Positions 52,814-56,038 of a DNA stretch of 64,000 nt are shown here, piece after piece. Origin of the DNA: Acetobacter lambici (lineage in GTDB: Bacteria; Pseudomonadota; Alphaproteobacteria; Acetobacterales; Acetobacteraceae). The stretch is taken from contig NZ_WOTD01000005.1 of assembly GCF_011516885.1 (NCBI RefSeq), forward strand, positions 1 through 64,000, given 5' to 3'. The notes below the pieces were generated by a model. It saw only the letters and a program-made list of their open reading frames with translations, was not told where the DNA came from and did not search any database. How positions within the stretch are numbered: position 1 is the first letter of the stretch; every line of letters begins with the position of its first letter. Position numbers and translations under genes: made by a program.

Positions 52814-53446
52814 TTAATCTGATAGCACTTTCATCGTCCGTAATGCTGCAACCAGAGGTAACAGCGGCAAACCCTGAATGGCGAACTCATCACCTTCTAT
52901 TGTGCCAAATAACTGTATGCCCGGACCTTCCAGCCGGTAAGACCCCACACAGCCAAGGCAGGCCGCTCCCTCCGTTGCCAGGTAATGCTCCAGGAATGCA
53001 TGGGAGAACAGACGCATGGTCAGCATTGGCCGGGCAACATGCCGCCAGAGGACCTGCCCGTTAAAGCACAGGACAACCGCAGTATGCAGGATATGGGTTT
53101 TACCTCTGAGTTGGAGCAATTGCTGGCGGGCACCCTCCAGCCCCTCCGGCTTGTCATACCATTCCCCTTCGCAACTGAGCATCTGATCCGCACCGATCAC
53201 AATTCTATCTGGTTTTTGCACCGACAGCGCTTTTGCTTCTGCAAGACGGAGGGCCACGGTATCCGCCGACCAGTTATGTTGCAGACCTTCATGCTTGAGA
53301 TGTGTCTCATTGATGGATGAAGTCTCAACATCAAAAGCCAGTCCGGCATTTTGCAGAATACGCCGTCTGGCTTCAGAACCACTGGCCAAAAGCAGTTTAT
53401 CCGCTCGGTTCTGTATTAGAGTCGGCGTTAGTACTAAATCGGTCAC
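52814..53446 (-). CDS. maf: Maf-family nucleoside triphosphate pyrophosphatase
   Basis: 210 aa. Maf signatures: LLASGSEARRRILQNAGL near residue 19, IVIGADQML near 82 (catalytic Asp) and DKPEGLEGARQQLLQLRGKTH in parts near 98. It hydrolyses non-canonical nucleotides and has been linked to septum formation. It starts with GTG at 53446. Its 5' end borders the putative origin, facing away from hemE, an arrangement also seen beside alphaproteobacterial origins. Confidence 0.88.
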   Translation of the reverse strand: MTDLVLTPTLIQNRADKLLLASGSEARRRILQNAGLAFDVETSSINETHLKHEGLQHNWSADTVALRLAEAKALSVQKPDRIVIGADQMLSCEGEWYDKPEGLEGARQQLLQLRGKTHILHTAVVLCFNGQVLWRHVARPMLTMRLFSHAFLEHYLATEGAACLGCVGSYRLEGPGIQLFGTIEGDEFAIQGLPLLPLVAALRTMKVLSD

Positions 53447-53814
53447 GGAAGCGAGTCTCTTTCAGGTACTGGTCAAAAATGGGGCTGTGAGTACTTCCCT
53501 TAGTACCGGGGTACATGTGGATTGTACGGAGTTCAGAACATGGCCGTACCGAGTACCGGGCACAACCTGCAACTCTCATGAACCGGTGAGTTGTACACAG
53601 GGGTGGTTGGATGTTTTCTGGATAACCCTAAAAACCCTTTATTTTGCAAGGGTCTTGAAACTGTACACACTGTGGGAAAGATGGGGTACATTTTTGGAAT
53701 GCCGGGTACCCCGTTATCAACAGTACCCTCATACTACATCAAATCTTTTTCTTTCTTTTTTTATAGGAAGAGGGGCGTGGACAGCGTGGACAAAGACGTG
53801 CAGGACTTCTGCTC
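53447..53814. other. oriC: Putative chromosomal replication origin (maf-hemE intergenic region)
   Basis: 368 non-coding bases between divergent maf and hemE. They contain twelve GTAC tetramers (53466, 53491, 53503, 53511, 53524, 53546, 53553, 53593, 53663, 53686, 53706, 53723), where about one or two would be expected. DnaA-box-like 9-mers are TTATCAACA (53714-53722), TTATCCAGA (minus strand, 53617-53625) and TTGTACACA (53591-53599), each one mismatch from TTATNCACA. An A/T- and pyrimidine-rich tract lies at 53733-53765, a candidate unwinding element. Established: the Caulobacter origin lies next to hemE and near parAB. Inference: this is oriC, also supported by divergent genes and parS sites 6-9 kb away. 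Confidence 0.65.
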
Positions 53815-54894
53815 ATGACAACGCAAACACATATTCCCGCCGCCAAACGCCTGCTCAGAACTCTTAACGGGGAGGCTCTGTGGCCCCCGCCGATGTGGTT
53901 GATGAGACAGGCCGGCCGGTTCCTGCCCGAATTCCGCGCAATGCGGGCTCAGGCGGATTTTCTGACCCGTTGCATGACCCCTGATATTGCAACGGAACTG
54001 ACCTTGCAGCCGATCCGCCGCTTTGGCATGGACGGTGCAATTCTGTTCTCGGATATTCTGATCCTGCCGTGGGCCATGGGTCAGTCCCTGGAGTTTGTGG
54101 AAGGAACCGGCCCCGTGCTGGGTGCAATCCGCTCCGAACAGGATTTGAACGCACTGGTTCCGGCCCGCATTGCAGAAGCAACCGCCCCTGTGCTTGAAAC
54201 CCTTGCACGCCTGCGTAAGGCTGTGGATGGGCCAGACAGCATTGGTGTTGCCAAACCGGGAGCCACAACACTGCTTGGCTTTACCGGATCGCCCTTTACG
54301 GTGGCGTGCTATATGGTGGAAGGCCGTGGCTCGCGCGAGTTTTCTGTAACGCGGAACATGGCTTTTTCCGAACCAGCTCTGTTTGACAGGCTCATGGCTC
54401 TGTTGACGGAAACAACAGCCACCTATCTTTGCGCCCAGATCGAAGCCGGGGCGGAAGCGGTCATGTTATTTGATTCATGGGCAGGCCTGCTGCCGCCATC
54501 AGAATTCCGCCGTCACGTCATTAAGCCCAGTCGGCAGATTGTGCAGACAATCAAGGCCCGTTACCCGCACGTAAAAGTTGTCGGCTTCCCCCGTCTTGCC
54601 GGGGTTATGGCTGCGGAATATGCGCGTGAGACGGGCGTAGATGTTCTGGCACTTGATACCGGGGCCGATATGGCGACCGTGCGCACAATGGTGCCAGAAA
54701 CTTTGGGCCTGCAAGGCAATCTGGACCCAGTGGCGGTTCTGGCCGGGGGGGAGGCCATGCGGCGTGAAGCCCTGCAGGTGCGCGAAGCGGGGCGTGGTCG
54801 GGCACATGTGTTTAACCTCGGCCATGGCGTTCTGCCGCAAACACCTGTTGAGCATGTGGCTGACCTTGTTCGGACAGTGCGGGAAACAGCCTGA
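53815..54894 (+). CDS. hemE: Uroporphyrinogen decarboxylase
   Basis: 359 aa; decarboxylates uroporphyrinogen III to coproporphyrinogen III. Signature PPMWLMRQAGRFLPEFR near residue 25, the active-site Asp in LFSDILILPWAMG near 78, and the second family signature GFTGSPFTVACYMVEG in parts near 155. AGGA precedes the ATG. First gene to the right of the putative origin; its stop overlaps the ATG of the HAD gene. Confidence 0.96.
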   Translation: MTTQTHIPAAKRLLRTLNGEALWPPPMWLMRQAGRFLPEFRAMRAQADFLTRCMTPDIATELTLQPIRRFGMDGAILFSDILILPWAMGQSLEFVEGTGPVLGAIRSEQDLNALVPARIAEATAPVLETLARLRKAVDGPDSIGVAKPGATTLLGFTGSPFTVACYMVEGRGSREFSVTRNMAFSEPALFDRLMALLTETTATYLCAQIEAGAEAVMLFDSWAGLLPPSEFRRHVIKPSRQIVQTIKARYPHVKVVGFPRLAGVMAAEYARETGVDVLALDTGADMATVRTMVPETLGLQGNLDPVAVLAGGEAMRREALQVREAGRGRAHVFNLGHGVLPQTPVEHVADLVRTVRETA

Positions 54895-55586: not shown

Positions 55587-56038
55587 TGGTTTTTGACGTG
55601 CTGCTTCCGTGGGTCAGGTGGTTTGTCGCCTTTCATATCATGTCTGTCATGGCATGGATGGCGGGGTTGTTTTATCTGCCCCGACTGTTTGTGTACCATT
55701 GCCAGGTCAAGATTGGTACTGCGGAAAGTACGCGGTTTAAAACCATGGAACGCCGGTTGATCAAGGCTATTATGGTGCCTGCCATGTGTTCCAGTCTGTT
55801 CTTTGGTGTTTTACTGGTTTTAACACCGGGGTCTGTCGACTGGAGTGCGGGCTGGTGGCATTTAAAATTGCTGTCAGTGCTGCTGATGTTTGGTTTTCAG
55901 GGGTTTTGTGGTCGCTGGTACCGGGGGTTCGCACAGGACAATAATCAGCATTCTGAAAAATTTTACAGATTGGCCAATGAGGTACCAACAGTTCTGATGA
56001 TGATCATCGTGATTATGGTTGTTGTCCGGCCTTTTTGA
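55586..56038 (+). CDS. hemJ: Protoporphyrinogen oxidase HemJ
   Basis: 150 aa, four or five transmembrane helices. Conserved N-terminal FHIMSVMAWMAGLFYLPRLFVYH (in parts) with a heme-ligating His, and the conserved WWHLKLLSVLLMFGFQGF region with a second His and Lys. HemJ oxidises protoporphyrinogen IX to protoporphyrin IX in bacteria lacking HemY or HemG. ATG overlaps the HAD stop (TAATG). It ends a hemE-HAD-hemJ operon. Confidence 0.88.
   Translation: MVFDVLLPWVRWFVAFHIMSVMAWMAGLFYLPRLFVYHCQVKIGTAESTRFKTMERRLIKAIMVPAMCSSLFFGVLLVLTPGSVDWSAGWWHLKLLSVLLMFGFQGFCGRWYRGFAQDNNQHSEKFYRLANEVPTVLMMIIVIMVVVRPF

Follow-up and report, generated by a model that had tools for sequence, protein, structure and literature searches.

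In Escherichia coli, Dam modifies GATC to give N6-methyladenine (m6A), and PMC5145175 describes 11 GATC sites in oriC, the minimal region of which measures 246 bp, as well as a GATC-dense dnaA promoter. According to PMC2865523, GATC is densely packed in E. coli oriC and likewise in the two Vibrio cholerae origins, oriI and oriII, and at oriII full methylation is described as also aiding binding of the initiator. In the RsaI restriction–modification system, M.RsaI places N4-methylcytosine (m4C) on a different tetramer, GTAC (PMC6256690).

Here we describe a locus in a 64,000-nucleotide stretch of the Acetobacter lambici genome (contig NZ_WOTD01000005.1, positions 1 to 64,000; hereafter the window) in which GTAC sites are packed between maf and hemE. 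Two features resemble Dam/GATC/SeqA: a four-base palindrome, by inference a methyltransferase target, is packed into a short predicted origin (12 GTAC in 261 bp), and a solitary methyltransferase appears to be co-inherited with the site cluster. The differences are as clear. Dam methylates GATC to m6A, whereas the acetous enzyme belongs to PF01555, carries an SPPYN motif, and likely makes m4C; GATC itself is depleted at the acetous origin (0.5-fold), and consensus DnaA boxes are almost absent there. None of 21 dnaA loci read here has a GTAC cluster, in contrast to the GATC-dense dnaA promoter described for E. coli. By analogy, the acetous system would work like Dam–SeqA, but it is not a member of that system.

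The Caulobacter origin lies in the same hemE gene neighborhood, and CtrA sites have the motif TTAA-N7-TTAA. The acetous origin is likewise found beside hemE; unlike a Caulobacter-type origin, its stretch contains no TTAA-N7-TTAA in the 62 loci searched and carries the GTAC array instead.

We consider it probable that the maf–hemE stretch is a lineage-specific, GTAC-methylated oriC that acts like the Dam–GATC–SeqA system of E. coli but was separately invented, probably with m4C as the mark. Among the matches listed in a search of full-text PMC literature, no title or opening of an abstract connected GTAC with these origins or with methylation in Acetobacteraceae.

Results and Discussion

GTAC Sites Are Densely Clustered between maf and hemE

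The cluster and its neighbors are listed below, with both genes named as in a preliminary description of this DNA.

52814..53446, minus strand: maf, an ORF, left neighbor of the predicted origin
53815..54894, plus strand: hemE (uroporphyrinogen decarboxylase), recognized as an ORF and from its relatives, right neighbor of the predicted origin
53431..53726, no strand: GTAC cluster of the predicted oriC, 13 GTAC counted, positionally conserved in Acetobacter
53663..53710, plus strand: conserved right arm, GTACAC-N-GGGGTACNTTTT-N-GGGTACC, the signature of the cluster

Twelve GTAC tetramers lie within 261 bp of the maf–hemE gap (at 53466, 53491, 53503, 53511, 53524, 53546, 53553, 53593, 53663, 53686, 53706, and 53723), and a thirteenth lies within the maf ORF at 53431. 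These counts agree with the preliminary description, as do the recurring longer forms that it listed, all of which we found where it had placed them: AGTACCGGG at 53502 and 53552, GGGGTACAT at 53508 and 53683, TGTACACA at 53592 and 53662, and GGGTACCC at 53704. GTAC is not enriched across the window as a whole (107 occurrences versus 115 in shuffles), where it is found about once per 600 bases. This density predicts 0.38 GTAC in a 261-bp stretch, giving a Poisson probability of about 1.4e-14 for 12, and the densest stretch of equal length elsewhere in the window contains 4. When the 368-bp intergenic stretch was shuffled with its dinucleotides preserved, the mean was 1.92 GTAC and the maximum 7, and 12 or more were reached in 0 of 5,000 shuffles. 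The original observation is correct, and the cluster is stronger than first described. A chance cluster, or an artifact of base composition, would have to survive both these shuffles and the retention of the array in loci ranging from approximately 36% to 67% G+C, and we give this reading no credence.

A search pattern that calls for three GTAC in a span of at most 72 bp has 18 matches in the 3.25-Mb genome, 7 of them in the maf–hemE cluster and 11 scattered singly. The same pattern read backwards has 1,104 matches, but it counts the commoner CATG and is hence an unfair null. A tandem array was considered as the source of the GTAC sites and rejected, as the repeat scan gave just one 9-bp doublet outside the cluster. 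This exact doublet, GCGTGGACA, occupies 53775-53792, shortly upstream of hemE, and the GTGGACA within it resembles a weak DnaA box. A search for RNA families between 52000 and 56000 returned a tRNA and nothing else.

Tetramer usage in the window and sampled relatives provides a separate observation. CTAG is under-represented relative to Markov expectation, with ratios of 0.30-0.56 in four sets and 0.79 in Bombella-type loci. GTAC is also below expectation, at 0.50-0.71 in the window, two complete genomes (G002 and G099), and array-less genera, and 0.90 in Bombella-type loci. In two sampled relatives, GTAC occurs once per 1,100-1,700 bases.

The GTAC Sites Are Conserved in Place

Across 71 loci with an array on the hemE side, 65 have 10-14 GTAC per 260 bp and the other 6 have 6-8. 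Within Acetobacter (18 loci), each of the 13 consensus sites is intact in 17 or 18 loci, and column conservation is 99.4% for GTAC, 90.2% within 4 nt of a site, and 85.4% for other columns. The same holds in Komagataeibacter/Novacetimonas (98.3 for GTAC columns versus 85.3 for others), Gluconobacter (96.7 versus 89.2), and Asaia and others (95.6 versus 81.5). GTAC is 28-fold enriched in the stretch over its flanks, while every other four-base palindrome is enriched at most 1.5-fold. In two genomes of a genus with approximately 36-38% G+C, 10-11 sites are retained where composition predicts fewer than 1 per 260 bp. At the level of sequence, these patterns show that the GTAC sites are under selection. 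The preliminary description had raised the possibility of lineage-specific GTAC units and proposed an alignment of sister genera; aligned in this way, GTAC columns are conserved in Acetobacter, Gluconobacter, and Komagataeibacter/Novacetimonas, and the units are held in place across the acetous Acetobacteraceae.

The letters around the sites behave differently when pooled and when followed one site at a time. We rejected an extended binding consensus, as a symmetrised profile of 967 origin GTAC adds little to the four letters themselves. Single sites nevertheless keep their own flanks between species (for example TTGTACACAG, GGGGTACAT, and GGGTACCCCG), and a C preceding GTAC is rare at the origin.

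GC Skew Places the Predicted Chromosome Origin at the Cluster

The cumulative GC-skew minimum of the window falls at 53406, and the mean skew is -0.065 on its left side and +0.112 on its right. Because this minimum sits beside the GTAC cluster, the maf–hemE stretch is very probably the chromosome replication origin, which bears out the putative origin of the preliminary description by the skew analysis that it had suggested, here computed for the window. Skew is lower to the left of the cluster than to the right in 67 of 69 hemE-side loci (2 of the 71 were left out because a flank was too short), with a true sign change in 44 of the 69. In the complete Acetobacter genome G002, skew in 20 sampled stretches, 2 of which are slightly off-sign (-0.012 and +0.007), crosses from negative into positive values in the interval 3.44-3.60 Mb, and the cluster lies at 3.56 Mb; dnaA lies at 2.14 Mb, within the negative-skew arm. 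In a second complete genome, G099, the switch falls between samples at 1.75-1.77 and 1.84-1.86 Mb and the cluster at 1.87 Mb, an offset of approximately 15-125 kb under sparse sampling.

The cluster also keeps company with the skew minimum where it has parted from hemE. Nine of 80 hemE loci have no adjoining cluster, and all nine belong to Bombella, Saccharibacter, Parasaccharibacter, or a close relative. We looked for another tetramer replacing GTAC beside hemE in this clade and found none; the cluster is found elsewhere instead. At least four of those nine genomes carry the same array at another place, and the signature is present in 12 of 12 genomes of two matching genera, g13 and g37, which are partly the same genomes as the nine. 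In three Bombella/Saccharibacter-type genomes, the skew minima (55550, 228968, and 41988) accompany clusters starting at 55932, 228163, and 42196, so that 208-805 bp separate the minimum from the start of the densest 260 bp of the relocated cluster, and hemE is approximately 20-26 kb away. These positions support the view that the array and the origin sit together, away from hemE, in this clade. The shift of the origin relative to hemE (L091-L104, G154, G183, and G168) is apparently a local rearrangement.

Published predictions place the origin differently. PMC3751514 puts an Acetobacter oriC near dnaA, and PMC13209655 puts one adjacent to dnaA and dnaN, at a skew maximum, so that the maf–hemE stretch could be read as a regulatory region of hemE or maf, with the true origin beside dnaA. 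We find this highly improbable, as the skew minimum coincides with the cluster, the sign switch in G002 brackets the cluster instead of dnaA, and the minimum stays with the cluster where it lies away from hemE in the Bombella clade. The two predictions, as these sources give them, clash with a skew minimum at maf–hemE (the dnaA loci compared here are L404-L424). The statement in PMC4686929 that an Acetobacter oriC was predicted by GC skew names no gene.

Other elements of the predicted origin are listed below.

53591..53599, plus strand: weak DnaA-box-like TTGTACACA with an internal GTAC, two mismatches from TTATCCACA, or one if position 5 is free
53617..53625, minus strand: DnaA box TTATCCAGA, one mismatch from TTATCCACA
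53714..53722, plus strand: DnaA box TTATCAACA, one mismatch from TTATCCACA, abutting the last GTAC
53744..53763, plus strand: pyrimidine-rich/AT-rich tract, candidate unwinding element, with a similar T/C tract in relatives
53419..53423, no strand: GANTC (CcrM-type) site GAGTC, read from the sequence
53453..53457, no strand: GANTC site GAGTC, read from the sequence

Three DnaA boxes at one mismatch had been described here, which is true against TTATNCACA; against TTATCCACA, two boxes are at one mismatch and the third is at two. The pyrimidine-rich tract adjoining hemE is present as described, at approximately 53744-53763. DnaA-like boxes have no special placement beside GTAC (56% versus 58% expected).

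A Solitary Methyltransferase Travels with the Array

In 24 genomes surveyed for the PF01555 family of methyltransferases, all 24 have two enzymes by score, CcrM and a second enzyme of approximately 285 aa. The gene for the second enzyme (L145:1372-2226; C6:118983-119831 in the genome of the window) lies downstream of a Tim44/TimA-type gene, and its product carries the motifs SPPYN and DPFMGTGTT. Its best PDB match has an E value of 2.9e-21, which indicates no close solved relative. Against the NCBIfam CcrM model it scores 69 bits with a cut-off of 830, and the separate CcrM of the same genome scores 631.6, also below this curated cut-off. The two enzymes share the beta class and the Pfam family, but the second is a distinct protein, with a recognition region 16% identical to that of CcrM. 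Unlike CcrM, it is confined, in the genomes searched, to acetous Acetobacteraceae and a few relatives, Paracoccus plasmids apart. The one neighborhood read (2.8 kb) has no restriction enzyme beside the gene.

An ortholog (best E ≤ 1.5e-106) is present in 96 of 150 genomes of the order, and the best E value among the remaining 54 is 6.9e-22. In a wider search of 289 Alphaproteobacteria genomes, E ≤ 1e-40 was reached in 3, all within the same family. The right-arm signature follows the enzyme, occurring in 90 of the 96 enzyme-bearing genomes and in 0 of the 54 enzyme-less ones; the reversed signature, which counts the commoner CATG and thereby overstates chance, matches many genomes 0-6 times. 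The six enzyme-bearing genomes that miss the signature have 6-11 GTAC in 260 bp near hemE, and in genome G095 the signature matches by chance at a site distant from hemE, near which this genome has 5 GTAC in 260 bp. All 96 enzyme-bearing genomes thus carry the array, thin in some, while the 27 of the 54 enzyme-less genomes that were read around hemE never exceed 3 GTAC per 260 bp.

Mapped onto a 57-row hemE tree, the distribution of the array calls for four changes, and well-supported branches force three of these. Two reduced genomes nested in the acetous clade, g3 (G073) and g41 (G195), have neither the enzyme nor the array, and a genome-wide look found no GTAC cluster anywhere in either; both have long branches, the composition of g41 is deviant, and the tree is of a single gene. 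A third line, g8, groups with the array-less side yet carries the enzyme, in another gene neighborhood, together with a thin array (5-6 GTAC near hemE, never three within 72 bp). Its enzyme and array may have come by transfer or by early descent. In two g8 genomes, a look for a partner gene traveling with the methyltransferase gave one further ORF, with shadow frames, common to most other loci. The distributions across these genomes show that the site cluster and the methyltransferase have been gained and lost together. The methyltransferase was chosen by hypothesis, which is weaker than a blind screen, and any clade-specific gene would share much of its distribution; the only independent evidence comes from the two losses, in g3 and g41, and from the anomalous placement of g8.

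The same lines differ in their DnaA boxes. In 71 acetous loci, the mean per 520 bp is 0.03 perfect boxes and 1.46 boxes with at most one mismatch, against 13.4 GTAC, whereas array-less genera have 0.42 perfect boxes and 0.50 GTAC (24 of 25 such loci). In g3, the 520 bp upstream of hemE (L181, G073) contain 14 perfect TTATCCACA boxes and zero GTAC, and the skew minimum of its 17-kb locus (L181) falls downstream of the start of hemE, at a distance of 3 kb. Per 520 bp, the enzyme-less g41 has 2 perfect boxes and 1 GTAC, and g8, with the enzyme, has 2 perfect boxes and 6 GTAC. With a GTAC array in place, strong DnaA boxes may have become less necessary, a suggestion that draws on one or two lines.

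GANTC is 4.7-fold enriched in the origin stretch of 62 loci, and two methylation systems, CcrM and the GTAC system, may meet there.

Phage Relatives Point to GTAC as the Probable Target

Relatives of the enzyme in two kinds of cyanophage, Syn19 and ACG-2014j (44-45% identity), are encoded directly after, and overlapping, a gene named R.RsaI endonuclease, a depositor's name for a gene without a Pfam match. On viral contigs carrying relatives of the Syn19 enzyme (L351-L403), an R.RsaI homolog, in one case weak, lies just upstream in 39 of 53, and at least 4 of the 14 contigs lacking it end at that side. A third kind of phage, ACG-2014f (46%), has no R.RsaI-type neighbor. The recognition region of the acetous enzyme is 49-50% identical to those of Syn19 and ACG-2014j and 52% identical to that of ACG-2014f, compared with 39-48% over the rest of the protein. 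Two Paracoccus plasmids carry relatives of 50-52% identity, and a Paracoccus relative matches the recognition region at 60%. Identity drops to 15-21% in the recognition region and 25-36% elsewhere for five relatives whose specificity differs or is not established, namely CcrM, an enzyme encoded next to an endonuclease of the ScaI family, another next to one of the PmeII family, and two more; these enzymes are more distant overall, so the contrast is partly one of distance. The target of ScaI is AGTACT.

Because its recognition region matches those of the RsaI-paired phage enzymes, the acetous protein is likely a relative of GTAC-type methyltransferases with no endonuclease partner seen, and we infer that GTAC is its target. 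The mark is probably N4-methylcytosine (GTA-m4C), since the catalytic motif is SPPYN. The enzyme resembles the RsaI system in this probable target and in the R.RsaI-annotated partners of its cyanophage relatives. It differs in having no endonuclease seen, in being kept throughout the clade, and in having a GTAC-crowded origin as its counterpart. R.RsaI relatives were found in 0 of 385 genomes of the class, in a search run without a positive control, and in none of a plasmid collection.

The enzyme could also be an ordinary orphan methyltransferase serving defense or gene regulation, with a cluster that arose from another cause such as DNA shape or packing. Other clade-specific genes would show much the same distribution, and GTAC also occurs outside the origin, at the spacings given above for the window and two relatives. 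Enzyme and cluster nonetheless change together on the tree, GTAC is the sole strongly enriched four-base palindrome, and neither an adjacent restriction enzyme (in the 2.8-kb neighborhood) nor an R.RsaI relative (in the 385 genomes) was seen, which makes this explanation improbable.

Origin Methylation as a Possible Initiation Control

Because the pooled flanks share little and a GTAC-type methyltransferase co-varies with the cluster, the origin GTAC sites are most likely methylation targets. Judging from the sequences compared here, GTAC is presumably methylated in these cells. The preliminary description had proposed an origin-binding site for a lineage-specific regulator. Its lineage specificity stands; we replace the plain binding site with a methylation site, as little is shared beyond the four letters and the solitary methyltransferase is gained and lost with the cluster, and a reader may still bind. 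Alternatively, a lineage-specific regulator, or DnaA with an altered taste, could bind unmodified GTAC units cooperatively as simple protein-binding sites, and the methyltransferase would then be a passenger or a mere modulator of binding. The flanks kept at individual sites exceed the needs of a pure methylation mark and, with the rarity of a preceding C, fit this alternative. It is less easily reconciled with the lack of an extended consensus common to the sites, with a co-inherited methyltransferase whose recognition region matches enzymes paired with GTAC endonucleases, and with the missing sites in lines that lost the enzyme, and we regard it as unlikely.

In the methylation reading that we prefer, the origin GTAC sites would be targets of the solitary chromosomal beta-class DNA methyltransferase, and passage of a fork would leave all 12-13 hemimethylated simultaneously. 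The density of sites could slow full remethylation or let a putative reader of hemimethylated or methylated DNA occupy the origin. Old and new origins could then be distinguished, and re-firing would be blocked, or initiation licensed once per cycle. By analogy with Dam–SeqA, hemimethylation would control initiation, and the sites would have a putative reader protein. In a bolder version, which we offer tentatively, a phage- or restriction-derived GTAC m4C methyltransferase would have been domesticated in the acetous Acetobacteraceae to time the origin, and would be the first such clock to use m4C. It would largely have replaced consensus DnaA boxes and would work with a putative SeqA-like reader, and a line that lost it would have to rebuild its origin, as may be the case in the enzyme-less line with 14 perfect DnaA boxes and zero GTAC.

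If the methylation reading is true, replication initiation came under methylation control on two or more separate occasions, through different enzymes that leave different marks, and the Dam/SeqA logic is a convergent solution, not a gammaproteobacterial quirk. Acetous bacteria, which include vinegar, cellulose, and insect-gut strains, would then provide another tractable model, one in which gains and losses that occurred in nature, and an origin that has moved, can be compared. The placement of an Acetobacter oriC at dnaA in PMC3751514 and PMC13209655 would also be corrected.

A second GTAC cluster was sought at dnaA, and 0 of 21 dnaA loci have more than 3 GTAC in 260 bp; at least 4 of the 21 are short upstream, with dnaA opening the contig, and 3 are from genomes without the enzyme. 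The methyltransferase gene itself lies far from the origin, at 67-91% of the half-chromosome in five single-contig genomes (G002, G099, G075, G077, and G089), a position that could delay remethylation, and at 10% in g8 (G079). One Acetobacter genome has the methyltransferase in two copies, the second of which (G003:C1:2003390-2004217) is 57% identical.
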